The translations under genes were made by a program, and so were the position numbers. Source: Isoetes taiwanensis (lineage: Eukaryota; Streptophyta; Lycopodiopsida; Isoetales; Isoetaceae). Taken from it: DNA of 64,000 nucleotides. The notes under the pieces are model-generated. The model saw only the letters and a list, made by a program, of their open reading frames with translations, was not told the DNA's origin and did not search any database. Below are positions 7,579 through 43,107 of the stretch, piece after piece. The number at the start of each line of letters is the position of its first letter. Position 1 is the first letter of the stretch. The DNA is taken from assembly GCA_021234155.1 (NCBI GenBank), contig JAJEKV010000027.1, forward strand, positions 2,789,167 through 2,853,166. Reading direction: 5' to 3'.

Positions 7579-8782
7579 CTAAGGCTGGGATAAAGAGGGG
7601 GAAGAAGAAGATGGAGAGATACCACTATGGCTTTGATCAAAGGGAGAAGAGGCAGAAGCAGATCCTTGAGAAATGCCAGAAGAAGGGATGAAAGGTGTGG
7701 CAGTAGAAGAAGAAGAAGAAGAAGCAGGCACTTCAACAATGGAAGGAGGAGAGAATTGAAGCAGTGGAGGGGCAGATTGAAGAGTGGAAGGAGGGGAGAA
7801 TTGAAGAGCAGGAGGTTCTGGAGGAGCAGGCTTGATGGCTATGGCAGGCACAGAGTTGGACTCCACAGCAGGAGCCAGAGGAGGGGGTCCCTGCAGAAAT
7901 GGAAAAAACTGAGCCAGTGGAAAACTCTGAGGAATCTGAAACCAGGGAAATGCTGGATTTGCTGGCTGTGATGCCTGATCCACTGCTTTGGATATGGCCA
8001 GCTGATCTCCTGATGGTTTCAGCGCCGCCTGCGCGATTTGGAACAGAATTGGCAGTGCTGGTGCTAGAGGAGAAGATGCCAACATGGTTAGGAAATTTAT
8101 GGCATTGTCTGTGAGTGCAAGAGACTGAGATGGTTGGATTACAGGCTTAAGGTCAGTTTTGAGTGTGGATTTTTCAGAGTTTTTTTTGCTGCATGATGCC
8201 AATTGAGAGGTTGGCTGGTAGATTAGAGGCCCTGCTGTGTATATGTGCTGCCTGTTCTTGCTGGATTTGAGTGACAGGGATTCGTCCATTGTTTTGTATG
8301 CCTTGTTGCAGGAAATTTGGGGCTCGCTAATCACCCTTGCACTGCAGCTCTTGCTCTTTTGCTTCGAACCCACTAATTTTGCCGGTAGAGCAGCCATGAA
8401 TGTGCCGTTCTGATCCGTTGTCTTCACCACATTGTATTCCACCGATCCCTTGCTATTCTTGCACTCTATTGCCACATTTACTCCTGCATCAAAAAACCCA
8501 ACACGCAAATCCTGTTCAAAATCACGCCTCTGCAAAGCAGCATCCCCAAAACCTAATTTTAACCTAACATAGCTTATTTTACGTTTTAGAAATACCTGGA
8601 AGAAAAGCGCTGTTCTTGCTCAGGCCTCCCTCCAGGCACTGGTCGCAGATAACATGGCCAAACACTGTGACGGAAAGAGGCTCTTCGGCGAGGCGTTTAA
8701 TGGCTTTTCGATGGTGGCCAGATCTGGCAGCTGCTGGAAACACGAAAAATGCAAGGCAGAGCAGCAGGATCCTCGAAGCCAT
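7579..8782 (-). CDS. Secreted Pollen Ole e 1 / proline-rich cell-wall protein, two exons
   Basis: Exon 1 is 8782-8596 and exon 2 is 8483-7579, giving 363 residues. The donor (CCAG^GTATTT, minus strand) and acceptor (GATGCAG^GAG) splice in frame, creating FLPGVNVAIEC across the join. Residues 1-20 (MASRILLLCLAFFVFPAAAR) are a signal peptide. An Ole e 1 domain follows at about 36-120, with VTVFGHVICDQC, a second Cys after VAIE, and TTDQNGTF. The rest (about 190-363) is rich in Pro, Ser, Ala and Gln, ending in Ser/Pro blocks, like hydroxyproline-rich wall proteins. Family members are extracellular and act in the wall or on its surface; no enzyme activity is expected. The gene stands alone and looks intact. 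The start is chosen because it begins the signal peptide. Exact substrate or partner is unknown. Confidence 0.85.
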
Positions 8783-11985: not shown

Positions 11986-13792
11986 CTTGGAGCAAGCTTC
12001 TTACAATTTCCGATGCGGAGCTTCGCCTGCTTCACTTTGATCTTGAGCCACACGTTGTCGCCAACTTCGAACTCTCTGACTGTTCGATGCTTGTCGGCGA
12101 TGCTCTTTTGTCGACTCCTTGCTGCCAGAAGATATCCTCGAACTTCTTCCACTAGCTGCTGCATGTCGGCCAACATCTGCTGTGAAACTTCTACTTTTGA
12201 CACGGGATTGTGCCAAGTGTCTGGAGTTAGGCATTGATAGCCGTAGTTGATCATAAGCGGCGACATTTGGGATGATTCCTGCTTGGTGCTATTATATGCA
12301 AACTCCACCAAGTGAATAAATTCTTCCCACATACCTTGCTTATTCCAGACATAGTTTCGTAGCATGTCTTCCAAAATCCTGTTGGTCCGCTCCGTTTGGC
12401 CATCCGTCTGGGGATGATAGGCCGTGCTCATGGATAACCGTCACCCCCGATTGTCGCCAAAGAGGTCTTGCCAAAAGGCACTCATAAACTTCGGATCCCC
12501 ATCAAAGATAATCTCCCTGGCATGCCATGAAGCCCGAAGATTTCTTTGGTGAAGAGCTTCATTTGTATCCATAGCGGTGTCTCGTGGTCTGCCAAGGCAC
12601 AAAATGTGCCATCTTCGACAACCTTGTCTACCACTACCATCAAAGCGTCCTTCCCTCTTCTCCGTCCCTTGAAGCCCGTTATGAAATCCATGCGGATCAC
12701 CTCCCACTTAGCGTTTGGCACCGCTAATGGCTCCAATGCCCCCGGAATTCGAAGCCGCTCGCCTTTCTGTCTGCGACATAGCTGACATTCCTTGATGTAG
12801 CGAGCTACCGCTTCTTTATTCCCGGCCAATAATAGGCTGCTGCGCGCACTTTGAAATATGTCTTCACCCGCATGGCCAGCTATTGGACCGCGTGGCGGTC
12901 GTGGAGGATCAATTTCCTTACACCTGATGATTCGGGCACGCACAACTTGTCTTTATGGTATAACAGGTTGCCTTCCTTCTTATAATGTCTGAAGGCTTCC
13001 CGCTCTTTATCTGTTCTAGCCTCCCTAGAGAGGCTTGCCCATACTTCCTTGAAGTCCACATCCGTTGGCAAGGACTCTTCAATCTTCCTACCAAAGTCGC
13101 TGGAGAGCGTCAAAATTGCATTGCAATGCACTCTAGTTGTCAGGGGATGCCTTGAGAGTGCATCCGCTACCACGTTGAGCTTTCCCGGCTTGTAGACTAT
13201 ATCAAAGTCATATTCCTCGAGGAACTCCATCCACCTTCGCTGCCTCAAGTTAAGGTGTGGCTGCGTGAATACATACTGGAGGCTCTGATGATCTGTGTCC
13301 AATTGGAACTTTCTTCCCAAGAGGTAGTGCCTCCAAATTCTTAATGCCCTGACAACTGCAAGCAATTCTTGATTGTGCGTCGGGTAGCGCATTTCGGCGT
13401 CGTTCATCTTCCTGGAATCATACGCTACCACGCAGCTCTTCACGCATGAGCCTTTTTGTGGCTATCTTACTTCGTCCTGCCGCCACCAACTTGTCTTTCT
13501 CTCGGATCCGCGGGGTTAAGGCTGGGCAGATTGTTAAAGCTTCCTTCAACAATTCAAACCACCCAGGGCTTTCTTGTGCCAATGGTTACGCCCAATCTTT
13601 CACCTTTTCTGCCCTCATCAAATGCATTGGCGGGGCGCTATCTTAGCAAAGTTCTTCCGCGAACTTCACGTGTACCACCGCTAGGCCAAGGAAACTTCGG
13701 ACCTGGTGCACATTCTTCTCGTGCCGCCTTTGAATGACGGCTTCAATCTTGGTGGGATGCAATGAGATTCCTTCTGCTGAGATCACATGATC
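11986..13792 (-). pseudogene. pol: Outer gypsy copy, pol 3' part: RT end, RNase H, integrase
   Basis: Minus-strand continuation of the outer element interrupted at 13792 by the inner one. From 13792 it starts in the RT thumb (ISAEGISLHPTKIEAV). It runs through RNase H (YDSRKMNDAEMRYPTHNQEL, 13440-13380; TDHQSLQYVF near 13290) and then integrase (KWEVIRMDFITGF near 12700; STAYHPQTDGQTERTNRILE 12428-12369). Integrase frames are broken near 12480 and 12440. The protein diverges from the inner copy after GNCKKLAP at about 11990, so the chromodomain, PPT and 3' LTR of this copy are gone. It is joined in origin to 27637-36441. Confidence 0.9.
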
Positions 13793-15367
13793 TGTGGCGT
13801 CCCCTACTGCGTATACGGTGCACTCGCCGTATACAAACAGAGTTCATCCCCCATACCACTCCATATCGATACAGGGGCCCTCCACAATCATCGCACCCGT
13901 AACGGGTCCCATTGGGAAGAGTGAAGGGGTCATTTTACCCGTCTCCCTCGGGGCCTACCTAGGCTGAAGCGTAAACATACATGTCGATTATACAACATAA
14001 TCACATATCCACCTCGAGAAGGGTGGTGCATCAACATCTGCATAGACAATGATCGGCATCATACATAGGGTCCTACCCAAGGCTCGGACTTCGAAGGGAT
14101 GGCCCGGCTTGGGTCTCCCAGTTCATTGCGGACATAATTAAATGGCAATGGATTTGGGCGGCATATGAACATGGCATAGGGTTGTCCACTCCATCCGCCC
14201 CTCACGGTGCACACTTTTGCGTAAAGGCTGAAAAGTGTCCGGACCTCGGCCTTAGCCCACCCGGATGCATAGCGAAGGGGCTATTCACAGGTCTCATCCT
14301 CCCAGTTCGATGGGGCAGGAAGGGATCACTCCCTCCGAGAGATCTACATGCCAGACTCAAGGTGACTAGAGGGCCCGCCTGTATTCGATTGAACCCAATC
14401 GGAAAATGTACACCACTTCACGGGTGTCGAGTCCATGCCTTACCCGCACTCGGTGGTAAGCCATTAGACCTAGTCACAATGATCCCTGGTAGGCCTTACA
14501 CACTAGAGGGATCGTTCAAGAGTCAGAACATGAACCTCCTTCTTAGCCATCGGCCCCTTCACCCACAACCTGGTGTGGTTCTTGTGCACGCAGCCGAATC
14601 TATAGTGTGCTAGAGAGGCTAATCTAGGAGCATCTACTACCAAGCTTTAAGTCTCTACCCCCCTTCCCAATACAAGGAGTTCATAGAGATACATCATCCA
14701 TATACATCACAGAAGAACTAAAGAACTATATCTAATCTATATCATAGAGTTAGGTTCTTTAGTTAGAGTCTGGTATCTAGAGATCTAGAGGGGCTGCTAT
14801 GGGCAATTTAATAGGGTAAACCTACCGGATTCTATGGACCGCAATGTGGTTTAAGCTATTAAATTGCCTAAATACTGATCCTTGGGTTGCTCCTCCCGAC
14901 TGAGTTCTCGACCATCTATTTGAAATCGCCGAATCAAGGGAAACTAATGGTGCAATTCTCTCAGACAGAGTCTGAGAGGCGGTTTTGGCTCTTGAGGCAG
15001 CCAAAACAGAGCTCTAAAACCCTAGAAACGAAAAATGGGCAAGTTAGGGTTTCCCCTCCTAAATAGACAAGGGGGTAAGCTAGGGTTTCCAATTATCCCC
15101 TTTAGGCATGTGGGATAATTGGGAATGGGCCCACTTGCCTTTAATGGCTAGGTGGCAAAATGTGCCCACATGGAAAGGTGTGCCCACATTAATGTGCACA
15201 TTGGTAAATGTGCACATTAATAATAAATGCACATTGCTAGCAAGTTGCCCCCTAGGGGCTACCCACCTGGCTACTGGCGTCGTGCACACTGGTCGGAGTG
15301 GCGTAATGCTGCGTGGGCAAAGATGCGATATATGTCCCGGGACCGTATAATCGCGGGAAACGTCACA
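13793..15367 (-). repeat. 3' LTR of the inner gypsy element
   Basis: 1575 bp, ends TGTGGCGTCCCC on the left and GTCACA on the right. It matches 26064-27636 and 34876-36441 along its full length. On the minus strand it starts TGTGACG. A candidate promoter TATA is not obvious; GTCTATTTAGG near 15065 is the best A/T-rich element. Short plus-strand frames inside (for example 14182-14613) are LTR translations, not genes. Confidence 0.92.
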
Positions 15368-16254: not shown

Positions 16255-17475
16255 TTAATCTACACAAATCGACATGCCTGAGCCGATTTCTTCGGAGATG
16301 ACTTTGCCGTCCCATTGCTCCATAAACTGTGGGTACTGCTTTACTAGATCTTTCTTAAGTACCCATGTGGCGTCTTCCACTGGCAAGTGCTTCCACTTGA
16401 CCAAGTATTGGAGAAACTCTGATCTTCTCGTTTTCTTGAAGGCTTTATCAAGAATCAACTCTGGAACTATTTCTAGCTGCTCCTCCGTCATTTCCAACAA
16501 CGTTGGAGTGTCCAAGACTTCATCTGGATTGGGGGTATGTTTCTTCAATAAACTCACGTGGAAGACCTTATGAATCTTTAGGTGTGCTGGCAAATCTAGC
16601 TTGTAGGATTGATTACCTACTCTCTTGACTATTCTGAAAGGTCCAGCCCACCTTGGAGCAAGCTTCTTGCAATTACCGATACGGAGCTTCGCCTGCTTCA
16701 CCTTGATCTTGAGCCATACATCGTCTCCAACTCGGAACTCTCTAACTGTTCGATGCTTGTCGGCAATGCTCTTAAATGCGACTTCTTCTTGCTAGCGGAT
16801 ATCCTCGAACTTCTTCCCACGAAGCCGCTGCATATCGGCCAACATCTCTGGCGTGAAACTTCTACTTTTGACACGGGATTGTGCCAAGTGTGCGAGTTAG
16901 GCGATAGCGTAATTGATCATAAACGGCGACATTTGGGATGATTCTTGCTTGGTGCTATTGTAGGCAAACTCCACCAAGTGAATAAATTCTTCCCACATAC
17001 CTTGCTTATTCCAGACATAGTTCCGTAGCATGTCTTCTAAAATCCTATTGGTCCGGCCCCGCTTTGGCCATCCGTCGAGGATGATACGGCCGTCTCATGG
17101 ATAGCTTCGCCTGAATGGTCGCCAAAGAGGTCTTGCCAAAAGGCTCATAAACTTCTTGATCCCCTCGGCGGAGATAATGTCCCTTGGCATGCCATGAAGC
17201 CTGAAGATCTCTTTGGTGAAGAGCTTTGCTGTATCCATAGCCGTATCTGTGGTCCTGCAAGGCACAAAATGTGCCATCTTCGACAACTTGTCGACCACTA
17301 CCATCAAGGCATCCTTCCCTCTTACTGTTCTTGGAAGCCCTGTGATGAAATCCATGCTGATCACCTCCCACTTAGCATTTGGCACCGCTAATGGCTCTAA
17401 TGCCCCCGAATTGCCGCTCGCCGTCTCACGACATAGTGACATTCCCTCGATGTAGCTAGCTACCTGCTTCTTCAT
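16255..17475 (-). pseudogene. pol: Inner gypsy integrase with C-terminal chromodomain
   Basis: The HHCC-type zinc region is partly visible near 17475 (GMKKQVASYIEGMSLC). The catalytic core shows WEVISMDFITGLP (first Asp, near 17360). Frames then break around 17095-16941. From 16701 the C-terminal domain is open for 148 residues: GPFRIVKRVGNQSYKLDLP, then HVSLLKKH, then a chromodomain in the last 60 residues with FLQYLVKWKHLPVEDATW and PQFMEQWDG. Chromodomains of this group direct integration toward heterochromatin, and several bind methylated H3 tails. Two Trp of the aromatic cage region are present. This places the element among chromoviruses; the KHLP and ATW signature resembles the Tekay group, but I did not test that. 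Confidence 0.9.
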
Positions 17476-21723: not shown

Positions 21724-23498
21724 CTAATCTTGAAATCGCCGGTAAGATGGGTTGTCCTCAAGGAACTTCTTAACTTGGGCCGTTCCTATGGAGTGTCCCA
21801 AGTTCCTAAGGACGTTAGTCGACGTCCCGCCCTGCAAGGCCGTCACCAACTCTTCCACCCCTAGCGGAGGTGTAGGCCGCAGCTATTCGCCAATCTTCCC
21901 CGTCGGTAGGGCACGCCGGTCGAAGAGGTCAAGTGCCATTGCTCTCTTCACTAGGACAGCATAGTCGACATTTGCCGCTATTCGAGCATGCCTGCTGAAG
22001 CCTGAGAGTGCAATAAGCATGAACACTCCTTCTTCACCTCGTGGGCTGAATTTGCGGTGTATCACCGCTATTCTCCCCATCCAAAGAAGCGAGGCAGGTA
22101 GTATCTCGGCGACTGCAGTTGTGTGTGTCGCAGATGATTCCCCACTTGCTTGGCCTCCGGCCAGCGCCGTCAGGCGTACTGCGTCGACCTCTACCTCGGT
22201 CGGCTCGGTGATACGCGGTGTGGAGTCGACTGGCTGTCGCATTCCTGCTTCTTTGCCGGGGTGGTGTCGAGGGGCTCCGGCATCAAGATGCTGGTGGTCT
22301 TGCCTCTGATCCCCATCCGTTCCTTTGGATGGCGAGGAACTCTTCTTCCGATGGCGGTCTCCGGCCTCCCGCCAACACGTCTTATCTTCGTAGGCACGGA
22401 TGTCGGAAGCTCACTCCCCCGTGTAAGTGTGGCTTCCGCACTTGGAGCGGAAAGTCTGAGGCTTCGGTCCGGTAGTGCGCAATTGTGGAGTCGACTGGCT
22501 AATGTCGATTCTGCTCCTCTTGCTGGGGTGGTGTCGAGGGGCTCGCATCAAGATCTTTGGTGGTCTTGCCACATCCCCATCCGCCACGGATGGCGAGGAA
22601 CTCTTCTTAAGATGGCGGTCTCCTGCCTCCATAGCTTTGCCTTATCTTGCCAGGGGCACGGATGTGGGAAGTCCACTTGCGGTAGGTGTCGGCTTCCTCG
22701 CACTTGGGCAGAAAGTCTCGGAGGGCTTCCCTGCACGATGAAGTCGCCCAAATCCGATTCTTTGTCATTGGTTGGTGCAAAAACTCATTAAGCCGCTCCC
22801 TCCCTCTCGCATTCGGAAAGATTACAGATGTCACCGGAGTAGATACTCCTCTCGCTGATGATGATGGGGGCTAGGCTTGTGATGCCTAGCCCAAGTGGTG
22901 GAAAGCCACTCAGGGTCCGCCGGGCCCGCTCGATGTTGGCCCAGCTCCTCCTGCAGGCGCCGTTCTTAGTTCGAAGTCGAAGCTCAGGTGTACTCTTCGC
23001 CGTCCTACCTCCTCTTCTTCTTCTCTTCCTTCTTGCTCCCGCCGGTAACGCAAAAACATCCGCTCTTCTCGCTTGGGCGCTATGGGGTCCACCTCCATCG
23101 GAGGATAGAGGTTGCCCCATTGGGTTGGCACGGTGGGATAGGAAAATAGCTAGGGCGGCGGCAGTAGGAGAAATACTTGGTCTCAGCTGTCCGCCGTGAC
23201 CATGTAGTCTGACCTACCTCTGCCTTGTTAGTCAAGTACTTGGCGATGTTCTACATCGCCCAAAGGCCGCTTGAAGGGATGGGCGGGGAATAAAATAGCC
23301 TATGCAAGGGGGGAGCTGGACGAGGGAGGGTCCCACCCTAGCTTGGAACTCTGCTAAAACTTGTCTATATGCTGGGGTTGCATTCAAAGTGGCTTGGACA
23401 TCTATTTCTTTCCCAAAGACTCGGAAGATGTTATTGACATCCGCCTCGGCAGCATGGGCACTGGCGCTGTACCATCGCCTGAAGTCAGCAGTGGCCAT
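21724..23498 (-). pseudogene. ORF X of the inner gypsy element (unknown accessory protein)
   Basis: Starts at ATG 23498 (MATADFRRWYSASAHAAEAD) and ends at TAG 21724-21726 after VKKFLEDNPSYRRFQD. The span is 1775 nt, about 1510 nt without a 265-bp internal duplication, equal to the outer copy's 1509 nt. N-terminal ~170 residues: VFGKEIDVQATLNATPAYRQ, then VGPSLVQLPPCIGYF. The middle is acidic, Gln/Glu- and Ser-rich. The C-terminal part has SGFSRHARIAANVDYAVLV and VEELVTALQG. Several frame changes interrupt it. I recognise no family. It is preceded by the hairpin pair and TATAAATA and followed by an A/T-rich tail, so it looks like a separate transcription unit rather than part of gag. Confidence 0.7.
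22221..22750. repeat. 265-bp tandem duplication inside inner ORF X
   Basis: TGGAGTCGACTGGCT starts at 22221 and again at 22486. The following 250 bp align (GGGGTGGTGTCGAGGGGCT, GGCGAGGAACTCTTCTT, GGCACGGATGT) with many small differences. The outer copy has one unit (about 30880-31130). The length is not a multiple of three. Confidence 0.85.
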
Positions 23499-23612: not shown

Positions 23613-23620
23613 TATTTATA
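23613..23620 (-). promoter_or_regulatory. TATA box before inner ORF X
   Basis: Minus strand TATAAATA, 115 nt before the ORF X ATG at 23498. The same octamer occurs at the same distance before outer ORF X (31998-32005) and before both H3-like ORFs (25500-25507, 33984-33991). Four-of-four conservation supports an internal promoter. Confidence 0.7.
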
Positions 23621-23758
23621 GAAAAGGGGAAAACCCTAATTTTTGGATGACCTAGAATTTACTGGGATTGGGCGATTCTGATCTATTAAGAGGTGCAATT
23701 GAGAGTTTGAAGACTACTTTTATCATTTGGGTATGGCATGGTGAAGAATTGCTGCGAG

Positions 23759-23825
23759 GTCTCACACGTTGCGCCCAGACCGATAATGAAACGTTCATTT
23801 TCTGCCCTGGCGCGACGTGTGAGAC
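23759..23825. promoter_or_regulatory. Hairpin 4 (nearest ORF X), inner element
   Basis: GTCTCACACGTTGCGCC pairs with GGCGCGACGTGTGAGAC (17 bp, one T-G wobble). Inside, GATAATGAA and TTCATTTTC form a second stem. This is one of eight copies in the two gypsy elements, two before each extra ORF. Confidence 0.85.
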
Positions 23826-24169: not shown

Positions 24170-25402
24170 TCAAGGGCGTTCTCCCTTGATGTGTCTAGCC
24201 AGATGCATATCCTGTCTCATGAGTGTGACCCTCTTCGCGTGAACTGGCGGTAGTCGAATCTTCAAAGTGCTGCACCGGTTTTGCTCTCCGCCTTCCCCAC
24301 AGGCACAGCAACATTTCATCGGTCACCCGCATGTCTGTGTTATACTCTTGCATAACCTCTCGGACCAAGCGTTGAAACGGTGCCCGGGGGATCAAGAGTC
24401 CGTAACTTCGCTGGAAGTGCCGGATTTCCTTGAGGGCTCTCTGCTTCTTCTGCTTGCTGTTGGTCCGCTTCTTTCCTGGTGCTCTGGGAGGCTTGGGCCT
24501 GGGTGGCGGCGGCTTCAGGGTCTGGCTTTTTGTCGGGTGTCCGCCTTCAATTGTTCTCACCATGTGCTCTTGGTAGTAAGCGTTGTATGCCTCCCACTTC
24601 GCCATGTAGGCGTTGTGCTCCTTGATCTTCTTCTGATAGACCTTGACGGGGTCTATCACGTATGCCTCCCGTTGTGGTCGCGGGGCTTTAACCCTATCCC
24701 ACGTCGGGAAAGGTGGGGGCTTCGGGCGCCGCTACTGGCTGCTCTCGCCAGTGCGACCTTCTCGTGTACTTCCTTCTCCATGACCTGGTTTTGAAGAGCT
24801 TGCCCCCTCGGTGTTGGGGACGTAATCTTCGTCCGAAGCCGCCGTAGAAGGCGGGTCCGCCGCTGATGGCTCATTTGATGGCGGGACCTTTCGCCGCTTA
24901 CCAACCTTCACAACCTGTTCTCTTGCTGCGCCTTTAATGCCTTTGGCCCTCTTCCTCTTATTTCGGCCGTGGTTAGTTCGCTCGTCCTCCCGTCTTTTGT
25001 CCTTCTCTCTCGGCGACTTTGGCTTCATACTTGCCGATGAATGCCGCGAGGTCTGCTTCTTCAACCGGGGCTAAGCTTCGGGCCGCTGCTCCTCTCTCTC
25101 GCCTTCCCCGCAGACGGGCCCAAGCTTCGAAGTTGTTCCTCGGCGGCCGGGCTGTCCCCGCGCCTCCCGTTCCTCCTGCTCCTCCCCGCCCTCCTACGAT
25201 TTCTTCTTGATCTCGGTGCATGACATCTGGCCGCTCCTCCCTATGACCTGTCCCGTTGCTCGGTCCATTCGGTCCTCCTCACCGATGAAGATTCGCGCGC
25301 CCGACATTCTTCTTGGAGTATCCTCTCGATCGGCTGGTCATCGGTGACTTGAAGATTCGCCCTTCTACGGGGCTTCCTAGCAGTCCGCTTTGTCCGGGCC
25401 AT
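24170..25402 (-). CDS. Histone H3-like protein encoded by the inner gypsy element
   Basis: ATG at 25402 opens with MARTKRTARKPRRR: residues 1-9 copy the canonical H3 tail except Q5 to R, keeping K4 and K9; S10 is P. About 270 residues of charged linker follow (acidic and Ser/Pro runs, GKRRKVPP as a possible nuclear signal, VIDPVKVYQKKIKEHNAY). Then comes an H3 fold: ALKEIRHFQRS (alpha-N), LLIP.APFQRLVREV (alpha-1), YNTDMRV (loop 1), a 23-residue segment to FED that aligns without gaps to H3 alpha-2, and VHAKRVTLMRQDMHLARHIK with stop at 24170. Total is about 410 residues versus 135 for H3. Frame changes occur in the linker and just after FEDST (2-nt loss relative to the outer copy), so this copy may be non-functional or misassembled. 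Known family: nucleosomal histone; the role in an element is inference. Confidence 0.88.
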
Positions 25403-25499: not shown

Positions 25500-25507
25500 T
25501 ATTTATA
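25500..25507 (-). promoter_or_regulatory. TATA box before inner H3-like ORF
   Basis: Minus strand CCTATAAATAGA, 98 nt before the ATG at 25402 and 77 bp after hairpin 2. The leader that follows shares GGCGATCTTC with the ORF X leader, suggesting a duplicated promoter module. Confidence 0.72.
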
Positions 25508-25583
25508 GGGCCGGTTTTAGGTCAAATTTCAAACTACCTTTTAGGGTCATCTGGAAACACCTAGAACACCTAAATTCAAGCAT

Positions 25584-25788: not shown

Positions 25789-25855
25789 GTCTCACACGTT
25801 GCGCCCAACCCGAAAATGAGATTCTCATTATCTGTCCCGGCGCGACGTGTGAGAC
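25789..25855. promoter_or_regulatory. Hairpin 1, inner element
   Basis: Full 17-bp outer stem GTCTCACACGTTGCGCC / GGCGCGACGTGTGAGAC. Inner stem GAAAATGAG / CTCATTATC is weaker. It lies 200 bp downstream (sense) of the PBS. Confidence 0.85.
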
Positions 25856-26050: not shown

Positions 26051-26062
26051 GCTCTGATACCA
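26051..26062 (-). other. Primer binding site (initiator Met-tRNA), inner element
   Basis: Minus strand TGGTATCAGAGC, one base after the 5' LTR end. It is complementary to the 3' end of plant initiator methionine tRNA, the standard primer of many plant LTR elements. The outer copy has the same site at 34862-34873. Confidence 0.92.
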
Positions 26063-26063
26063 C

Positions 26064-27636
26064 TGTGACGTCCCCTACTGGATATTTGCACTTCGCCAGA
26101 TACAAACGAGGAGTTCATCCCCATACCAGCTCCATACCGATACGGGGGCCCTCCACAATCATCTGCACTTAACGGGTCCCAAAGTGGGAAGAGTGAAGGG
26201 GTCATTTTACCCCGCCTCCCTCGGGGCCTACCTAGCTTGGAAGCGTAAAACATATATGTCAAGATACAACATAATCACATATCCACCTCGGCGGGTGGTG
26301 CATCAACATCCGCATAGACAATGATCGCGATCATACATAGGGGTCCTACCCAAGGCTCTCGCTTGAAGGGATGACCGGACTTGGGTCTCCGTGAGTTCAT
26401 TGCGCATGTAATTCATGGCAATGGATTTGACCGCATATGAACATGGCATAGGGTTGTCCACTCCATCCGCCCCTCCCCGTGCACACTTTGCGTATAGGCT
26501 GAAAAGTGTCGACTCGATCAGAGTCTCCGTGGATGCATAGCCAAGAGGCTATTCCCGGGTCTCATCCTCCCAGTTCCGATGGGGGGGAAGGGATCACCCT
26601 CCGTGATCTACATGCCGACTCAAGGTGACTAGAGGGCCACCGCCTGTGATTCGGATCAACCCACTGGAAAATGTACACCACTTCACGGGTGTCGAAGTCC
26701 ATGCCTTACCCCCAAGACTTCGGGCAGTAAGCCATTAGACCTAGTCATAATGGTCCCCGTAGGCCTTACACACCGGAGGGATCGCTCAAGAGTCGAACAT
26801 GAACCTCCTTCTTAGCCATCTCGCCCCTTCACCCACAACCCGTGTGTGGTTCTTGTAATACTGTGTCTAATCTATAGTGTGCTAGAGAGGCTAATCTAGG
26901 AGCATCTACTACCAAGCTTTAAGTCTCTACCCCCCTTCCCAATACAAGGAGTTCATAGAGATACATCATCCATATACATCACAGAAGAACTAAAGAACTA
27001 TATCTAATCTATATCATAGAGTTAGGTTCTTTAGTTAGAGTCTGGTATCTAGAGATCTAGAGGGCTGCTATGGGCAATTTAATAGGCTAAGCCTACTGAT
27101 TCTATGACTGCAATGTGGTTTAAGTTATTAAATTGCCTAAATACCTGATCCTTGGGTTGCTCCTCCTGACCTGAGTTCGACCATCCTGCTGAACTGCCCG
27201 AATCAAGGGAAACTAATGGTGCAATTCTCTCAGACAGAGTCTGGGAGGCGGTTTTGGCTCTTGAGGCAGCCAAAACAGAGCTCTAAAATCCTAGAAACGA
27301 AAAATGGGCAAGTTAGGGTTTCCCCTCCTAAATAGACAAGGGGGTAAGCTAGGGTTTCCAATTATCCCCTTTAGGCATGTGGGATAATTGGGAATGGGCC
27401 CACTTGCCTTTAATGGCTAGGTGGCAAAATGTGCCCACATGGAAAGGTGTGCCCACATTAATGTGCACATTGGTAAATGTGCACATTAATAATAAATGCA
27501 CATTCCTAGCAAGTTGCCCCCTAGGGGCTACCCACCTGGCTACACGTCGGCGTACACGTCAGTCGGAGTGGCGTGTATGCGTGACGAGGCAGTACAGTAT
27601 ACGTCCTGGGACCATATACTGTGCTGGAACGTCACA
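26064..27636 (-). repeat. 5' LTR of the inner gypsy element
   Basis: 1573 bp, TGTGACGTCCCC to GTCACA in plus orientation. Long stretches (for example 26921-27060) are identical to the 3' LTR at 14641-14780. Most differences elsewhere fall at CTG/CAG sites. The right edge abuts the outer element's RT sequence with flank ATGAC. Confidence 0.92.
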
Positions 27637-28987
27637 ATGACCCAGGTATTCCACCCTCTCCGTTGCGAAGTGGCACTTCGACAACTTTGCGTACAACTGG
27701 TGCCTCTTCAACTTCTTCAGCACCCTCCTTAAGTGTTGTACGTGTTCCTCCAGGGATCTGCTATACACCAAAATGTCATCAAAGAATACTATCACAAAGG
27801 TGTCCAAACTCCCTGAAGATGTCATTCATGAGCCTCATGAATGTTGCTGGGGCGTTCGATAAGCCGAAAGGCATTACCGTGAACTCATAGTGCCCATACC
27901 TGGTCCTGAAAGCCGTTTTATGAATATTTTCTTCCTTTATCCGGATCTGATGATAGCCTGACCTTAGGTCGATTTTGGAGAAGACCTTTGCCCCTTGGAG
28001 TTGATCCATCAAGTCGTCAGATCTGGGGAGCGCATACTTATTCTTGATGGTGTGCTTGTTCAACTGCCTATAGTCTATGCACATCCTCAAACTACCATCC
28101 TTCTTCTTGACAAAAAGAATGGGCGCCCCGAATGGTGAGACACTAGGTCTAATAAAGCCTAGGTCGAGCAACTCCTGCAATTGCTTCTTTAGCTCCGTCA
28201 ACTCCTGCGTCGTCATTCTATATGGGGCTTTGCTCGTCGGCTTCGTTCCTGGTTCGAGTGCTATCTCACACTCGACTCCCCTATAAGGAGGAAGCTGCTT
28301 GATCTCATCTGGAAAGAGATCGTGGAACTCCGTGATCAACTTAGCTACTTGCTTGGGCAACTCGCTGAGCTCCTTATCTTCCTTACCCTCTTCTGATTCG
28401 GGCTCTTGGATCTCGAGCTTGAAGATATCGGCTACTTGCTCACTCATTATGCATCTGAACAGCTGCTTACTAGACATGCACTGCATAATGGGAACAACTT
28501 CTTTACCTGTGATCTCTATGATCTTGCCATTGGGTGCTGTGAGGGTCATTTTGCGCTTTCCACAAACAATGAGGGCTCCTGCTGGTCCAAGATATTCCAT
28601 TCCAATGATCAAGTCATACTTGCCGATGCCCATTACCTCTGCCCCCATCTGGATATTAATCCCTGGCAAGTCGATGTCGAAATTAATTCTCTTGCCTGCC
28701 GTCTGCCTTACTGCTCCACTTGCTAAGACGACGGGCCTTGGCTTCGACTTCAGTGGTTTCAACTTCAACATTTCGACCATTCTGGGGGATGCAAAGTTAT
28801 GGCTACTTCCCGAGTCTATCAGGACTACGAAGGACTTGGCCTTGGCCTTCCCTATTGTAGAAATTACCTTATACTGGCTCTCTGCTTGTTCTGTATCTAT
28901 TGCTGCAAAGATATGACACTTTCGCCTTGCGCCGCCGCCGACGGGCCGAGTGTCCCAATCTCCCAACTCACTGAAGGCCGCACTCAT
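27637..28987 (-). pseudogene. pol: Outer gypsy copy: protease and reverse transcriptase, nearly intact
   Basis: A 402-residue frame runs 28987-27779. It holds aspartic protease with [14 protein letters not shown] (residues 55-67), then RT with [53 protein letters not shown] and [18 protein letters not shown] frame change near 27800 moves to the segment holding catalytic FFDDILVYS and RVEYLGH. There the inner element is inserted, and the protein resumes at 13792. This is the best preserved pol stretch in the window and the reference for judging the inner copy. A conserved connecting segment ([17 protein letters not shown]) precedes RT. Confidence 0.93.
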
Positions 28988-31997: not shown

Positions 31998-32005
31998 TAT
32001 TTATA
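31998..32005 (-). promoter_or_regulatory. TATA box before outer ORF X
   Basis: Minus strand TTCTATAAATATG, 114 nt before the ATG at 31884; same spacing as in the inner copy. Confidence 0.7.
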
Positions 32006-32197
32006 GAAAAGTGAAAAACCCTAATTTTTGGATGACCTAGAAATTTACTGGGGTTGAGCAATTCTGACCTATTAGGAGATGCAAATGAGAATTTGAAGAC
32101 TACTTTTAGGGTTTGAGCATGCTAAGATCAGCTAATGAACCTATTGCAACAAACTGGAGGTCATTTGGATATGGCATGGTGGAGAAAATGCTGGGAG

Positions 32198-32264
32198 GCC
32201 TCACACGTTGCGCCGAGACCGATAATGAAAAGTTCATTTTCTGCCCTGGCGCGACGTGTGAGAC
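32198..32264. promoter_or_regulatory. Hairpin 4 (nearest ORF X), outer element
   Basis: Left arm GCCTCACACGTTGCGCC, right arm GGCGCGACGTGTGAGAC, inner stem AATGAAAAGTTCATTTTC. One substitution weakens the outer stem. Confidence 0.85.
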
Positions 32265-32397: not shown

Positions 32398-32464
32398 GTC
32401 TCACACGTTGCGCCCAGCCCGAAAATGAAAAGTTCATTTTCTGTCCTAGCGCGACGTGTGAGAC
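32398..32464. promoter_or_regulatory. Hairpin 3, outer element
   Basis: GTCTCACACGTTGCGCC / AGCGCGACGTGTGAGAC with perfect inner stem GAAAATGAA / TTCATTTTC and loop AAG. Located between the H3-like stop and hairpin 4, about 145 nt after the stop. Confidence 0.88.
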
Positions 32465-32608: not shown

Positions 32609-33882
32609 TTAAGGGCGCTCTCCCTTGATGTGTCTAGCAAGATGCATGTCTTGCCTCATGAGTGTGAGCCTCTTCGCATGAACTGTGCAGGCCGTCGAAT
32701 CTTCAAAATGATGCACCAGTTTTTGCTCTCGCCGCTTCTTGCGGGGCCAGAACATCTCGCTCGGCCACCCTCATATCCGTGTTGTACTCTGGATCACCTC
32801 TGGACCCAGACCAAAGCGCTTAACGGTGCACGGGATCAAGAACCGTAGCTTCTGCTGAAGTGCCTCGATCTCGCCGGGGCTCTCCTCTCCGTCTCCTTCC
32901 TGCCGGTCCTCGTGGTGGCGGCGGCTTCAGAGTTTGGCTCTTCGTCGGATGTCCTCCTTCAATAGTCTGTGCTCCTGGTAATACGCGTTGTACGCCTCCC
33001 ACTTCACCATGTAGGCGTTGTGCTCCCTTAACTTCTTCTGATAGACCTTGACGGGGTCTATCACGTACACCTCTCGATGTGGCCGTGGTGCTTTGACCCT
33101 ATCCCATCGCCGGGTGGGGGCTTGTCGCCTGCCGCGGGCTGCTCCGTGGAATTGCCTCGCTCCTGGTGGGTAATCGCACGCTCATCACCGGGGTTTGGAG
33201 GAGCTTGCCCTTCCGTGTTGGGGGCGTAGTCTTCATCCGAATCGTCGTGGAGGGCGGGGGGGGTCACCGATGGTTCGTTGATGACTAAACCTTTTACCGG
33301 CAACAACACCACGACTCTTCTTTTGCCCACCTTCTTGCCCTTTGCCTTCGCCTTCTTCTTCTTGGCTCACCGAACGTGTTCGGCTCTTCTGTTCTCTCTT
33401 TTCTCTTCTTTTCTCGGCCGACGAGCTCTTTGGCTTCATACTCGATGAGCGCCCGGCGGGGTCTTCTTCCTCGACTGGTTCGAGCCTCGGCTCCCTACGT
33501 TTCCCTCTGGCTCCTCGGCCTCCTTCTCTCCAACCCAAGCTTGACTGCTCTCCTCGATGGTTGGCTCGGTCGGTACGCCTCTGTTCTTCCTTCTCTTGAC
33601 ATCTTGTTCTTCTTTCTTCTTCATTTCCTCCTCGGCCCGATCTTCTTCTTCTTTCTCCTTCCTTGCCACTTCTTCAAGGATTTCATGCATAACGTCCGGC
33701 TGCTCTTCGCCTATGACCTCCGTTCCCGCGTCGGAGTGTGCATCCTCCTCCGCGTGCTGGGAGCCCTCGCTTGATGAAGACTGGTCATGCCTGAGAAGAC
33801 GCTCCTGAAGCATATCTTGGGCTAGGGCGCTGGGGGAAGTAACACCTGGAGGGACTCTAGCGGTCTGCTTCATCCGGGCCAT
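32609..33882 (-). CDS. Histone H3-like protein encoded by the outer gypsy element
   Basis: ATG 33882 opens MARMKQTARVPPG: the H3 tail is recognisable with K4 and Q5 kept but T3 to M and K9 to V. An open 148-residue stretch follows, rich in Ser then Glu/Lys (coiled-coil-like EEVARKEKEEEDRAEEEMKK). Frame changes near 33440 and 33270 lead through SDEDYAPNTEG and VIDPVKVYQKKLREHNAY to the H3 fold. The fold is damaged in alpha-N/alpha-1 (about 32870-32790) but keeps EYNTDMRV. Its C-terminal half is intact: HHFEDSTACTVHAKRLTLM followed by RQDMHLARHIKGERP and stop at 32609-32611. This equals the H3 segment from L2 through alpha-3 to the C terminus. Size is about 424 codons including breaks. With the inner copy it defines a shared, element-borne H3-like gene. 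Confidence 0.88.
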
Positions 33883-33983: not shown

Positions 33984-33991
33984 TATTTATA
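33984..33991 (-). promoter_or_regulatory. TATA box before outer H3-like ORF
   Basis: Minus strand GTCTATAAATAGACC, itself a short palindrome, 102 nt before the ATG at 33882. Confidence 0.72.
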
Positions 33992-34072
33992 GACGGGCCA
34001 TTTTAGGTCAAATTTCAAACTACCCCTTTGGGTCACCTAAAACACCTAAATTTAAGCATTTCTAACTTCATG

Positions 34073-34601: not shown

Positions 34602-34668
34602 GTCTCACACGTTGCGCCCAGACCGAAAATGAGATTTTCATTATCTGTCCTGGCGCGACGTGTGAGAC
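34602..34668. promoter_or_regulatory. Hairpin 1, outer element
   Basis: Perfectly kept outer arms GTCTCACACGTTGCGCC / GGCGCGACGTGTGAGAC; inner stem GAAAATGAG / TTCATTATC weaker, as in the inner copy. Confidence 0.88.
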
Positions 34669-34861: not shown

Positions 34862-34873
34862 GCTCTGATACCA
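34862..34873 (-). other. Primer binding site, outer element
   Basis: Minus strand TGGTATCAGAGC directly after the 5' LTR end (about 34876). Same initiator Met-tRNA primer as the inner copy. Confidence 0.9.
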
Positions 34874-34875
34874 CT

Positions 34876-36441
34876 TTGGACGCCCCTACTGCATATACGG
34901 TGCACTCACCGTATACAAACAGAGTTCATCCCCCATACCAGCTCCATCGATACGTGGGCCCTCCACATGTCATCAGACCCAGAACTAGTCCCAAAGGGGA
35001 AGAGTGAAGGGGTCATTTTACCCCATCCTCCCCTCGGCCTACCTAGTCTGGGCGTAAAACATACATGTCAAGATATACAACATCATCTCATATCCACCTC
35101 GAAGGGTGGTACATCAACATCTGCATAGACAAAGATCAGCATAATACATATGGGAAAACCTACCCAAGGCTCAGACTCGAGGGATGATCGCCGCTTGGGT
35201 CTCCCGTGAGTTTATTGCGCATGCAATTCATGGCAATGGATTTGGTTGCATAAGAACATGGCATAGGGTTGTCCACTCCATCCGCCCCCCACACACTTTG
35301 CTTAGGCCGAAAAGTGTTGGGTTGACCGTAGCCCTCCCACGGGATGCATAGCCAAAGGGGCTACTCCCCGGGTTGCATCTCCCGCCCGCTGGGGCAGGTA
35401 GGGATCACTCCCACCAGAGGCATCCATGCTGACTCAAGGTGACTAGAGGGCCACTGCCCTTATTCGACTGAACCCACTGGAAAGTGAACATCACTCCACG
35501 GGTGTCGAGCCCATGCCTTGCCCGCACTCAGTGGCAAGCCATTAGACCTAGTCTACAATGATCCCCGGTAGGCCTTACACACCAGGGGGATCGTTCAAGA
35601 GTCAGAACACGAACCTCCTTCTAAGCCAGTCTGGCCCCTTCACCCACAACCAGGTGTGGATCTTGTACACAGGCCGAATCTACAGTGTGCTAGAGAGGCT
35701 ACTCTAGGAGCATCAACTACCAAGCCTTAGGTCTCTACCCCCCTTCCCAATACAAGGAGTTCACAGAGATACATCATCCACATACATCACAGAAGAACTA
35801 AAGAACTAGATCTAATCTATATTGTAGAGTTAGGTTCTTTAGTTAGAGTCTGGTATCTAGAGATCTAGATGGCTTCTAGGGGCGATTTAATAGGCTAAAC
35901 CTACTGATTCAATGACTGGAAGACGGTTTAGGCTATTAAATTGACCAAATACCTGATCCTTGGCTCGCTCCTCCTGCTCTGAGTTTGCTGAACCGCTCGA
36001 ATCGAGGAAAACTAACGGTGTAATTCGCTCAGATAGAGTCTGGGAGGCGGTTTTGACTCCTGGGGCAGCCAAAACAGAGCTCTGGAACCCTATGGATGAA
36101 AATGGCAAGTTAGGTTTCCTCCTATATCTAAATAGACAAGGGGTTAGGGCTAGGGTTTCCAATTATCCCTTTAGGCATGTGGGATAATTGGGAATGGCCC
36201 ACTTGCCTTTAATGGCTAGGTGGTATAAATGTATCTACATGGAAAGGTGTGCACCTTAATAAATGTGCACATTGGTAAATGTGCACATTAATAAATGCAC
36301 ATACACATACCTTGCAAGTTGCCCCCTAGGGGTTACCCGCCTGGCTACACGTCGGCGTACACGTCAGTCGGGGTGCCGTGTACGCGTGACGAGGCAGTAT
36401 AGTATACGTCCTGGGACCGTATACTGTGCTGGAACGTCACA
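34876..36441 (-). repeat. 5' LTR of the outer gypsy element
   Basis: About 1566 bp, collinear with the two inner LTRs but more diverged. Ends GTCACA at 36441, where the sequence of a different gypsy lineage begins. It has no surviving partner LTR because the element's 3' end is missing at about 11985. The boundary near 34876 has lost the exact TGTG start (reads TTTGGACG). Confidence 0.9.
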
Positions 36442-39460: not shown

Positions 39461-42400
39461 TTAGTCACTATCTGTGGAGTCGGAATTTTGTTGTTGATCC
39501 TGTGTATGAACACTTGTATCTTCTATATAAAATTGTTTTATGCGAAAACCATTAACCAGTGTAGGTAATGGAGTGCCATCTAATTCGGCCAGCTTGAAAA
39601 CACTGGGCGGAACCACTTGAATAATTTGATATGGACCAAGCCACCTGAATTTTAACTTGCCTGGAAATTTTTTGTAACGAGAATCATAAAGCAAAACCAA
39701 ATCACCTTCTTGAAAAGTTTTGGTCTTCAGATGTTTGTCATGCAAGGATTTCCGCAACTGTTGACCATGAAGAACCCGAATATAAGCATTTCGCCTAAGT
39801 TCATCCAATTGTTCAAGTTGGTAAACGCGTTCTTGAAGAGCTGCAGGTGGATTACATGTGGTAGCAAGTTGGAAACGAAGTGTCGGAAGAACATATTCAA
39901 ACGATATCAAAGCTTCTTGACCATAAACCAACTTGAAAGGAGTATGACCAGTAGCAATCTTGAAACAGCGATTGTAAGCCCAAAGAATAGTAGGTCACTT
40001 TTCGTGCCAATCCGTGCGAGAGGCATCACAGATTTTCTTCAGAATAGTGATGAGAGTCTTGTTTGTGCTTTCAGCCAAACCATTCCCTTGAGGATAGTAA
40101 GGTGTGCTTTTGCGGTGATGTATGTGCAAATAATCCGGCGCCTCCTTGAGGGTGTGATTAACGAAATGAACTCCACGATCACCGGACCGCCCGCGGGACA
40201 GCCAAAACGCTGATAATGTGTGTGTGTGTACGAACCTGGCGGTCGGGTCGCAGATTGTCTGGAAGTGCACAAGCCTCAGCCCATTTAGTAGCGTAATCAG
40301 TGATGACCAGAATGTAGCGGGCACGGATGTGCCGCGCATGAGGATCTATGGGCCCCACAAAGTCCATTCCCCATTTGCTGAAGGGAAGTGGCGGCGGGCC
40401 GGGCGGGCCAATCGGGAGTGCGCCACGGGCCATGGGCCGACCCCACACGCCGACGACATCACACGCGGCGGGCGTGGAGCGCAAGCATCCTTGAAGAGCG
40501 TGGGCCAGAAATAGCCTGCGAGAAGGATTTTGCGTGCCGTGGTGTCACCGTAGAAATGACCACCACCAAGCCCCTCATGGGCTTGTCGAACGATATCGGG
40601 TACTTCATGAGGAAGAACACAGCGTCTGAGGACCATATCCTTGCCGCGTTTGTACAGATGGCCCACAACCATGGTGTAGTCACGGACCTCACGGAGAAAT
40701 TGACGTTGGCGGGATCGAAGTTTTTCAGGAGAAAGAGTGGGATCTTCTGAGGGAAAAGCATCGGTGAGAAGATACTGCTGAAAGCTATGGAACCAATGGG
40801 GCGTGGCCGTGACCAAAAATAGCTGGGCATCAGGAAAGGCATTTGAGACACCCGTGGAGGGATCATCTGTGTGGATGCGTGAGAGATAATCTGGGACAAC
40901 ATGAGATTTGCCAGCTTTATGAACGATTTCAAAAGGAGCCAATTTTGCAAAAAAGAAGGACCCAACGAAAGCAATCCCCGCCCATGGGCGGATTTGTTGA
41001 TCAAATAGAGAAGAGCCTCGATGATCAACAAAGAACTTGATCTGACCGCCCAACAAATAATGACGGAAGCGTTGGACACAAAAATTAAACCCAAGGCCTC
41101 CCTTTTGTGGCAGAGTAGTTGCGCGCCGCCAGATTGAGTTTTCTCGGCCGGCATAACGGTTGGGTTTATCTGTGTGCGCGTCATATGCTTGAGAGAGCAG
41201 CACCAATAGCAAACGCGGAGACATCGACATGAACATGGAAGGGCTTGTCCCATTGAGGCGGAACGAGCAATGGGGCCCGAGTAAGCAAGAGCTTCAACCG
41301 TTGGAAAGCAAAGATCCGCCTTCGGGAATTTCAAGCCTGTGGATTCATCACCCGTGAGTTTATGAATGGGATCAGCAATAGCCGCAAGTCCGGAATGAAG
41401 GTGGAATAGTAATTGACCTTGCCCAGGAAAGAACGTATCTCTTTGATATTAGATGGTGCTTGAGCCTTAAGCACACAACCCGATTTTAGCAGATCCGTGG
41501 TGATACCTTCTTGACCGACCACATGGCTCAACAACACACCGTGAGGTGACGCAGAAGGTGCATTTCTCGATTGAGACTAATACCGCACTCATCACATTTC
41601 AAAGACGAAGCTCTAACTTGTCCGTGATCATCCATGGAACTCAGAGGGCTGAAAAGTCATCTTGAAAGATCTGAGAAAGGGTTTCTCCTTCATATAATCA
41701 TGAAAACCGAGAGCATGATGCGCTGAAACGTGGATGGAGAGTTGGATAAACCAAAAGGAACCATTTTGTAGGCAAAAGTGCTTACCCGGTGGTAAAGGTA
41801 GTCTTGAGTTGATCTCGCCTCTTTGATTGAAATTTGATTGTAGCCGGAAAACCATCCATGAAGGAGTACATTTTATGACCAGCAAACCTCTTCCGTAACC
41901 TGGTCCGTGAAGGGAAGCGGAAGTGATCACGCCCGTGGCCCGGATTGAGTTTGGCGATAGTCCACGCAGACGCCGATCTTACCGCTGTGTTTGAGAGCAA
42001 TGACAATGGGGCTCACCCATTCGTAATGTTTGACCTCATAAATCGCTTCCGGCCTTGACACACGGTCCACGGTAGTTGGGGTTGAGCCGGCATCGCCGCT
42101 GCTGACATGACAGACGTGCATCCGGGTTTGGTAGGAATGGTGAGTTCCCCAAGTCTTTGTTGATACCCCAAGATCTTTATAGCTCCGTGCAAAAAATGTG
42201 TTTGAATTTTTGAACAATGGAGGGGCGTGCGGCGCCGATAGGTGGTCGGGAGATTTGCAACAAGGCGGACGGGCCGATTGTTGCCAACGCCCACAATCTC
42301 CACCGAAGTCCGAATGTGTGGAACAACTTCCGTGTCTTGAACAACGGAGCGTGAGGTTGAAACATGACCAGATGAGTTGCATTTTGTGTGGTGAAGAAAA

Positions 42401-43107
42401 GCGGTTGTTGCCGAGCGCCATCTAGCGCTGGTTGCTTCATGACGATGGACGCCCACGTTGTCCGGAGGAAGGACAGATGTCGGAAAATGGTCAAGTCTTT
42501 GGATGTGATTGCAAGGAGCCAAAGGGTCGAAAAAGACCAGCCCACACCGGTCCTCGATCCGCAGTCATCTCACCCCAAGGATCAAGATATTCGTGGTAGG
42601 ATGAAAGAGGCGACTCGCGCAGTGGAGCCCGAACATGATAGATATTCTGGGCTTCACGTAATCGGTATCTAAGAGAGAAGGTTCGCATGTTCAACGTAGA
42701 TGATCTTGCCGCCAAATCCATGGTAGCATTGAGATGACCATCCAGAATGAGGAGCTGATCCGCGGCCCAATAATGAATACTTTTGCCCGACGGAGAAAAG
42801 GTCTCACACCAACATTTCATAATCACCGGATCTTTGCCGGGCTTTCCAAACACCAAATTCTAGAGGGAATCTGAAGTTCGCCTATATTGATGTGAAGAAG
42901 GGGTGACGCCTTGGGCGCTGCGGATATGACCATTGGCCAACTTGACATCATAAGGGGCACGGTAAAGTTGTTTGATGCCCAATTGCTTTCCTCGAGCTTA
43001 TCGTAATGAGATTGACAAAGACTTCCCCCCATCAATCTGGGCATGATTGACTTGTTGATTGCCCACCGGGGCATGCACCGTGGGTGTAGACGTAGCCACA
43101 GCCCCAA
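39461..43107 (-). pseudogene. pol: Second gypsy lineage: protease, RT, RNase H, integrase (no chromodomain)
   Basis: From 43107 downward: a protease region with QVNHAQIDGGKSLS (Asp site near 43030) in broken frames; RT with YEWVSPIVIALKHSGKIGVC (42020) and MVPFGLSNSPSTFQRIM in a shifted frame near 41760; RSFLGKVNYYSTFIPDL (41430); RNase H and linker (41236-40560, VDHRGSSLFDQQIRPWAGI); integrase zinc region near 40560 and core WGMDFVGPIDPHARH (40376), STPYYPQGNGLAESTNKTLI (40100); and a C-terminal domain open from 39931 with FRWLGPYQIIQVVPPSVFKL and LPTLVNGFRIKQFY. It ends in an acidic tail without a chromodomain, which separates it from the nested family and points to the non-chromodomain (Tat/Athila-type) branch. 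Multiple frame breaks. Confidence 0.88.

Follow-up and report, generated by a model that had tools for sequence, protein, structure and literature searches.

A hAT DNA transposon of the fungus Pyrenophora tritici-repentis carries a histone H3-like gene named H3L, the product of which is reported not to agree completely with either H3 or CenH3 (PMC3538342). Additional open reading frames are found in plant LTR retrotransposons, and one of them, gene23 of Grande, is described as nuclear and transcribed from its own promoter (PMC7264820). A bracovirus histone H4 with an extended N-terminal tail is reported to join host nucleosomes and to change gene expression (PMC5423620). Here we describe an H3-like gene, ORF1, of LTR retrotransposons from Isoetes taiwanensis. 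The analysis started from a 64-kb stretch of the genome, referred to as the window, for which a retrotransposon-borne gene with an H3 tail and an H3 fold had been predicted from the sequence. Hosts silence transposons largely through marks on the H3 tail. An H3 that is kept by such an element, and in which the first tail residues are the most constrained, would provide a direct probe of how a parasite acts on this layer of chromatin.

Nested elements in the window

The minus strand of the 64-kb window contains two Ty3/gypsy elements, one within the other: the inner element is inserted in the pol of the outer element and splits it into two parts. Self-comparison of the window pairs the 5' LTR of the inner element (26063-27636, minus strand) with its 3' LTR (13792-15367, minus strand). 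The two LTRs are 88.7% identical, and their K2P divergence is 0.124 over 1559 sites. The inner LTR starts with TGTGACG, and the flanks of the inner element, GTCAT and ATCAT, have four of five bases the same, as judged by eye. The primer-binding site (PBS; TGGTATCAGAGC; 26051-26062, minus strand) directly adjoins the LTR and is, by its motif, presumably of the initiator-Met type. The self-comparison also identified the 5' LTR of the outer element (34883-36441, minus strand), which is accompanied by a PBS (34862-34873, minus strand), but not its 3' LTR. The protease and reverse transcriptase (RT) part of the outer element (27779-28987, minus strand) matches the Pfam models RVP_2 (6.8e-09) and RVT_1 (2.2e-22).

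The C-terminal part of the inner integrase (16258-16791, minus strand) contains a domain matching SH3_Tf2-1 (PF24626, 1.3e-22) and a chromodomain (16312-16467, minus strand), which matches both the Pfam model Chromo (PF00385, 1.6e-10) and the Chd1 chain of a solved structure (9.9e-06). Because its integrase ends in a chromodomain, the inner element is a chromovirus by this definition, and the characteristic features of chromoviruses, which are LTRs, PBS, protease, RT, integrase, and chromodomain, were all found. The features of hAT elements, a hAT transposase and terminal inverted repeats, are absent: the element has LTRs, gag, and pol, and none of the frames compared with Pfam matched a hAT model.

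Other parts of the window contain further repeats and frames. Tandem repeats of about 330 bases (6.7 copies according to TRF) occupy positions 3541-5738, and copies of the repeat continue to about position 6835. The array is positioned not far from a frame encoding an Ole e 1 domain (7579-8535). The frames at 39461-45052 resemble another decayed retroelement, as judged by eye from the list of open reading frames. The region 46483-48807 has a weak similarity (67-75%) to the LTR-like sequence in front of a divergent relative of ORF1 (L082, described below), and contains an internal repeat (46961-47620 and 48154-48807) with 89.7% identity; it is perhaps formed by the LTRs of a further relative. 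Two of the three frames at 60311-63495 were compared with Pfam and gave no match; the three are possibly exons of a host gene.

Decayed H3-like genes in the inner and outer elements

The H3-like gene of the inner element occupies positions 24170-25402 of the minus strand and is decayed over several frames. It begins with the H3-tail-like N-terminus MARTKRTARK (25373-25402, minus strand). An open frame at 24195-24659 (minus strand) encodes a helical block and the H3 fold up to the residues FED, and the end of the fold, VHAKRVTLMRQDMHLARHIKGERP (24170-24244, minus strand), is identical to plant H3 in 15 of 23 residues. This open frame alone matches the Pfam model Histone (PF00125) with an E-value of 7e-13 (49.3 bits, cut-off 26.4) and H3 chains of solved structures with 9.1e-13. 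The prediction of an H3 tail and an H3 fold in this segment was therefore borne out, and the match of the C-terminal fold to H3 is significant in the profile search, against the solved structures, and in the intact copies described below. The tail, linker, fold, and C-terminus of the inner copy are in different frames with stops between them, and part of the second helix falls in altered letters. The decapeptide MARTKRTARK alone reaches merely an E-value of 0.6 in the search with the window sequence; it is the second copy and the genome-wide counts that place the tail above chance.

The second copy belongs to the outer element (32609-33882, minus strand). It is also decayed and split over several frames, starts with MARMKQTAR, and ends with FEDSTACTVHAKRLTLMRQDMHLARHIKGERP; the piece 32728-32615 alone matches H3 with an E-value of 1e-09. 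A hand count of differences between the last 24 codons of the inner and outer genes gave six silent changes and one replacement. The AF2 prediction for the decayed window piece shows the block as a long helix and also places helices in the fold, with a confidence (pLDDT 61.8, pTM 0.31) that is too low for the model to add evidence.

Intact copies and the structure of the protein

The genome, with 1,658,258,908 bases in 1110 contigs, was searched with a 154-residue piece from the window. The search provided 8,399 first-look candidates; the 150 that were scored have E-values of at most 1.8e-69. Twenty copies of family A, the family of the window copies, were fetched, picked for their long open frames. 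An open reading frame from the tail to the first helix of the fold is present in 14 of them and missing from the other six. Three of the 14 frames lack the normal end, and 11 of the 20 copies encode the complete protein of 415-422 residues, including its ...KGERP end.

The protein starts with MARTKQTARKP or a close variant of it. A charged linker leads from this tail to a conserved block (as YVIDPVKVYQKKIKEHNAYMAKWEAYNAYYQEH), and a complete H3 fold comes last. The nonapeptide ARTKQTARK is exact in 11 of the 14 frames, and position 10 is occupied by P instead of S in all 14. The linker between the tail and the fold has about 270 residues, includes basic stretches, and is unrelated to H3. In the intact copy L027, the PF00125 match covers residues 299-413 (1.6e-27), and the match to an H3.3 chain covers residues 288-416 (6.2e-29). 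The original reconstruction of a protein of about 410 residues, in which a linker of about 270 residues separates the tail from the fold, is thus right for the intact copies, whereas the inner copy of the window is not one open frame. A whole canonical tail (K14-K36) beside the fold, in a protein of about 136 residues, was not found. Given the length of the linker and the 415-422 residues of the protein, the product of ORF1 is H3-like and not a canonical H3. The motif HRYRPGTV, which forms the approach to the first helix in the host H3, is replaced in family A.

A search of about 5.8 billion proteins with the whole protein resulted in 2,475 matches from 8,000 scored candidates. The best 120 of them cover at most 48% of the query, so that no match listed shares the whole linker. 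The window piece retrieved five H3-like proteins, with 30-43% of the piece covered. A scan of viral contigs with the 154-residue piece gave 12 pattern matches, none of which was a relative, and a search of NCBIfam gave no match.

Organization of the elements

The order in family A is LTR, PBS, ORF1, ORF2, gag, pol, LTR. The H3 gene had been predicted to lie between the PBS and gag, which is correct for its position, but it is separated from gag by ORF2. The original prediction included neither ORF2 nor the chromodomain of the integrase, nor the H3 folds of other families that are closer to the host H3. Families A, B, and C (the latter two are described below) all have ORF2 in this position, in open frames of up to 539 residues. 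The start of the inner ORF2, an uncharacterised accessory frame, is at 23349-23498 (minus strand), and examples from other families are L053:3279-4727 and L057:2506-3915. The ORF2 of L053, the one that was tested, has no Pfam match. The frames after ORF2 encode capsid protein with zinc-knuckle, protease, RT, RNase H, and integrase, each in one or another copy. The PBS was located in 15, and the ATG of ORF2 in 16, of the 20 fetched copies.

A TATA-like box, CTATAAATA, is positioned at 25500-25508 (minus strand), 106 nt before the ATG of the inner H3 gene, and the corresponding box of the outer H3 gene is at 33984-33992 (minus strand), at a distance of 110 nt. The box precedes ORF1 in 18 of the 20 fetched copies, and the distance is 109-114 nt in the 17 copies in which both box and ATG were located. 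Another TATA-like box (23613-23621, minus strand) is 123 nt before the ATG of the inner ORF2, and one more (31998-32006, minus strand) precedes the outer ORF2, which has its ATG at 31884. All 16 copies in which the ATG of ORF2 was found have the box 122-124 bases before it. In families B and C, a TATA-like box at a fixed distance is not consistently seen.

In most copies, the H3 gene and ORF2 are each preceded by a pair of long imperfect palindromes, which are about 68 bases in length and about 200 bases apart. In the inner element, they are found upstream of the H3 gene (25789-25855, minus strand; RNA fold of -38.7 kcal/mol, z -7.6) and of ORF2 (23759-23825, minus strand; z -7.7), and further palindromes are at 34602-34668, 32398-32464, and 32198-32264. 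The four that were folded have z from -7.6 to -9.5. The palindromes are candidates for protein-binding sites in DNA or for hairpins in RNA.

Abundance and divergent relatives

The pattern of the fold end (33 bases encoding HAKRVTLMRQD, at most two mismatches) has 1,201 matches in the genome. The pattern of the tail (MARTKQTARKP, at most one mismatch) has 795 matches, which may include host H3 genes. Neither pattern has a match when reversed. Chance resemblance was ruled out by the second copy in the window together with these counts, and a host pseudogene beside the element was ruled out by the position of the gene between the PBS and ORF2.

The position of the gene was also checked from the side of ORF2. 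Twenty elements, all absent from the list of H3 matches seen, were taken from 150 that were scored for the start of ORF2. Fifteen of them have an H3 fold at the expected place, in some cases decayed, which together with the fold-end matches agrees with the expectation that other copies of the family contain the same gene. The remaining five have no H3 at the expected place; for one of these, C1094, an H3 match was obtained 3.4 kb upstream.

Six of the tail matches, which differ in codon usage, were fetched, and five of them are relatives of the family A protein. The exact tail of the six is partly a product of the search, because they were found by the tail pattern, but their divergence elsewhere is not. 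The one intact relative, L082, has 373 residues and matches PF00125 with 4.6e-29. Its MARTKQTARKP is exact, and it can be aligned with L027 only from residue 162 on, with 40% identity. A PBS is positioned 577 bases before the frame of L082, and LTR-like sequence precedes the PBS. The 3 kb after L082 contain no frame of at least 100 residues, and ORF2 was not seen there. In the sixth tail match, L083, a stop directly follows MARTKQTARKPR, and the fetched stretch shows no H3 fold; L083 is perhaps an element with only a remnant of the tail. Gag-like residues were recognized by eye within the 1.6 kb fetched around L083, and its 32 tail bases recur at two more places among the tail matches.

Other families and the origin of the fold

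A search of the whole genome with the Histone profile provided 8,704 candidates, of which 150 were scored. The top ranks are occupied by 15 canonical host H3 genes. In the next five loci, frames of 122-456 residues end with an H3 fold. Six 9.9-kb regions of that kind were fetched, two of them around two of these five loci. By eye, an ORF2-like frame follows ORF1 in all six regions; in L054, the two are separated by a stretch that contains other frames. Pfam detected capsid or RT in both of the regions tested, L057 and L058, and a PBS with at most one mismatch is present in four of the six.

Families B and C have N-terminal parts wholly unlike that of family A, MPRFKLTVDLKK... in B and METPKQVYKRKP... 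in C, and the ARTKQTARK N-terminus is absent from both. A protein search with the N-terminal region of family B (1,430 candidates) gave no match. The folds of families B and C are 84-88% identical to host H3. Compared with the host H3 L033, the identities are 85/97 (L053), 84/97 (L057), and 81/97 (L058) in family B, 85/97 in family C (L055 and L056), and 52/88 in family A. The rows L001, L014, L017, and L029-L032 were left out of this comparison, and L008 gave no match. According to lists of contact residues, 9 of the 12 residues of the H3-H3' bundle are kept in family A, and 11 of 12 in L082, B, and C. Of 18 residues contacting DNA, 10 are kept in A, 13 in L082, 15 in B, and 16 in C.

Over 197 residues of protease and RT, A and B2 have 68% identity. 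In trees calculated from chosen representatives (24, 23, and 21 rows, with human CENP-A in the first set and left out of the other two), families B and C group together (91/84), and A is on a long branch. The arrangement of A, B, and C as one clade is not rejected in these trees of the approximately 90-residue fold (p-AU 0.116 and 0.073), a result compatible with one capture of H3 as well as with several. L053 of family B is a single case of an element with the organization LTR-PBS-ORF1-ORF2-LTR, without gag-pol; its LTRs are 95.5% identical, and both ORF1 and ORF2 are open. Its relative L049 continues into other sequence, which it has in common with L057.

Selection on ORF1 and ORF2

The dN/dS of 14 ORF1 frames (91 pairs, L001 left out) is 0.169 overall, a value that the choice of copies by protein similarity and open frame tends to lower, and this bias is not removed by the out-of-frame control. 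The tail has the lowest value, 0.058, followed by the conserved block with 0.067, the fold with 0.123, and the linker with 0.216. When the same alignment is read out of frame by one or two bases, dN/dS is 1.96 and 1.41. The first part of ORF2 gives 0.108 in frame (8 copies, 28 pairs), and 1.73 and 2.20 out of frame. The copies of ORF1 have the pattern expected from purifying selection, and the gene looks as if it has been kept by selection.

Possible functions of the H3-like protein

We propose that ORF1 is a captured and long-maintained H3 gene that has become a standing accessory gene of a chromovirus lineage, and that its product enters nucleosomes and alters silencing or integration; we consider the chances for and against this explanation as a whole to be evenly balanced. 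At the level of the sequences, the H3 identity of ORF1, the architecture of the elements, and the pattern of constraint are shown, and together they suggest that these retrotransposons use a counterfeit histone to deal with the chromatin of the host. The protein would most likely be incorporated into host nucleosomes, where it would present an H3 tail that affects silencing or integration. It would be produced from its own promoter, for which the internal TATA-like box is the candidate, and would be transported to the nucleus, where it would pair with host H4 and replace H3 in nucleosomes. The free H3 N-terminus on the nucleosome would be readable at K4 and K9, whereas the rest of the canonical tail, from K14 to K36 and including K27, is absent. 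The chromatin over the element or over its target sites might thereby become harder to silence or better suited for integration, and the chromodomain of the integrase may be a partner of chromatin that contains the ORF1 protein.

The free N-terminus with K4 and K9, the P at position 10, and the lack of K14-K36 suggest either an altered H3 in chromatin or a decoy. Nucleosomes with this protein would not necessarily be stable, because 8 of the 18 DNA-contact residues are changed in family A and HRYRPGTV is replaced. The long linker between the tail and the fold, which is unlike canonical H3, also counts against the proposed explanation. Furthermore, a role based on the tail would not be common to all families, since B and C lack the ARTKQTARK N-terminus. 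As a rather unlikely extension, the lineage may supply both sides of the interaction: nucleosomes with its own truncated-tail H3 and a chromodomain that reads them, which would mark safe sites or escape silencing through K27 and K9.

Instead of entering nucleosomes, the protein might remain off chromatin as a soluble mimic of the H3 tail that occupies the readers, writers, and erasers of K4 and K9, with the fold merely binding chaperones or H4. Histone mimicry by viruses is a published theme, and several properties of the protein would suit such a decoy. The H3 N-terminus is at residue 1, so that the removal of Met would leave a free A1, and it is far from the fold. The tail has the lowest dN/dS, 0.058, and L082, a match of the tail pattern that can otherwise be aligned with L027 only from residue 162, has the exact sequence. 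Nevertheless, we regard this possibility as unlikely, since a decoy would hardly need a complete fold with a dN/dS of 0.123, and families B and C keep the fold and not the tail.

The basic stretches in the linker could also indicate that the H3-like protein, with ORF2, binds the cDNA or RNA of the element and serves in packaging, nuclear entry, or the formation of a pre-integration minichromosome. Large DNA viruses encode histones (PMC9145170), and the non-autonomous L053 keeps open ORF1 and ORF2 in the absence of gag-pol. However, relatives of the element have capsid and zinc-knuckle frames, the H3 tail would stay unexplained, and L053 is a single case, with its relative L049 running into other sequence shared with L057. 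A particle factor of this kind therefore seems improbable.

It is also quite improbable that the fold of family A originates from the CENH3 of the host and directs the element to centromeric chromatin. Family A shares with Arabidopsis CENH3 11 residues that differ from H3. Among the changed sites at which H3 and CENH3 differ, the CENH3 state is found at 11 of 24 in A, 2 of 9 in B, 3 of 12 in B2, 0 of 8 in C, 5 of 16 in P0001, and 6 of 24 in P0005 (L001 and L008 left out), and a clade of A and CENH3 is not rejected (p-AU 0.25 and 0.10). Against this origin, 15 residues of family A match H3 and not CENH3, the loop-1 insertion of CENH3 is absent in comparison with the Arabidopsis protein, and the best trees of the chosen representatives place CENH3 elsewhere.

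That ORF1 is an inert passenger, acquired by chance from the host and multiplied with the element although it has no function, is highly implausible: plant LTR elements do pick up pieces of genes (PMC7264820), both copies in the window are decayed, and six of the 20 fetched copies lack the tail-to-helix frame, but the in-frame dN/dS of 0.169, compared with 1.96 and 1.41 when read out of frame, the fixed position, the more than 1,000 copies, and the several diverged families argue against it.

An element that has kept its own H3 raises the questions of whether the counterfeit H3 is deposited, where, and which marks it carries or misses. The protein would also be a naturally selected long-tailed variant of H3 for nucleosome biochemistry, and the elements show that a retrotransposon lineage with numerous copies can adopt a core histone as a standing gene.

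Comparison with known systems

No histone in an LTR retrotransposon was found among the matches listed from the open-access literature, a scope outside which most subscription journals and preprints fall. This agrees with the initial statement that no LTR element carrying H3 had been described, but an H3-like gene is present in the fungal hAT DNA transposon. The word histone does not occur in the main text of the Isoetes taiwanensis genome paper (PMC8566536), and the words retrotransposon and retrovirus do not occur in the main text of a review of viral histones (PMC9145170).

The H3L of the hAT transposon resembles ORF1 in being an H3-like frame of a mobile element, altered in both its tail and its fold, that has multiplied with the element and is positioned beside a frame of unknown function (PMC3538342). 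However, H3L belongs to a fungal DNA transposon and has 26 very similar copies in the reference genome, which are described as recently expanded and perhaps drifting (PMC3538342). In contrast, the Isoetes element is an LTR retrotransposon with more than 1,000 copies, several diverged families, and signs of purifying selection.

The Isoetes element shares with plant chromoviruses the LTRs, PBS, protease, RT, integrase, and C-terminal chromodomain (PMC6317226). The chromodomain from the window lacks, as judged by eye, the first and third aromatic residues of the cage, which corresponds to type II as described for chromoviruses (PMC6317226). The difference is in the two accessory frames between the PBS and gag, the first of which is an H3. 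The word histone is used once in that description of chromoviruses, in connection with chromodomain binding, and terms for upstream frames were not matched in it (PMC6317226). The additional frames of plant LTR elements are similar to ORF1 in that they are kept in most copies of a family, but those described are mostly positioned between pol and the 3' LTR, and none is a histone (PMC7264820). Chromoviruses, accessory frames, and parasite-borne histones are thus each known, and their union, with signs of selection and a wide spread, was not found described.

The bracovirus H4, which is encoded by the virus of a parasite, resembles the product of ORF1 in that one core histone was taken from a host and its N-terminal part is changed (PMC9145170, PMC5423620). 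It is an H4 and not an H3, and it comes from a wasp polydnavirus and not from a retroelement, so that it is a functional analogy and not a relative. Among the systems compared here, it offers the nearest tested analogy for the mechanism by which the H3-like protein of Isoetes retrotransposons may act.
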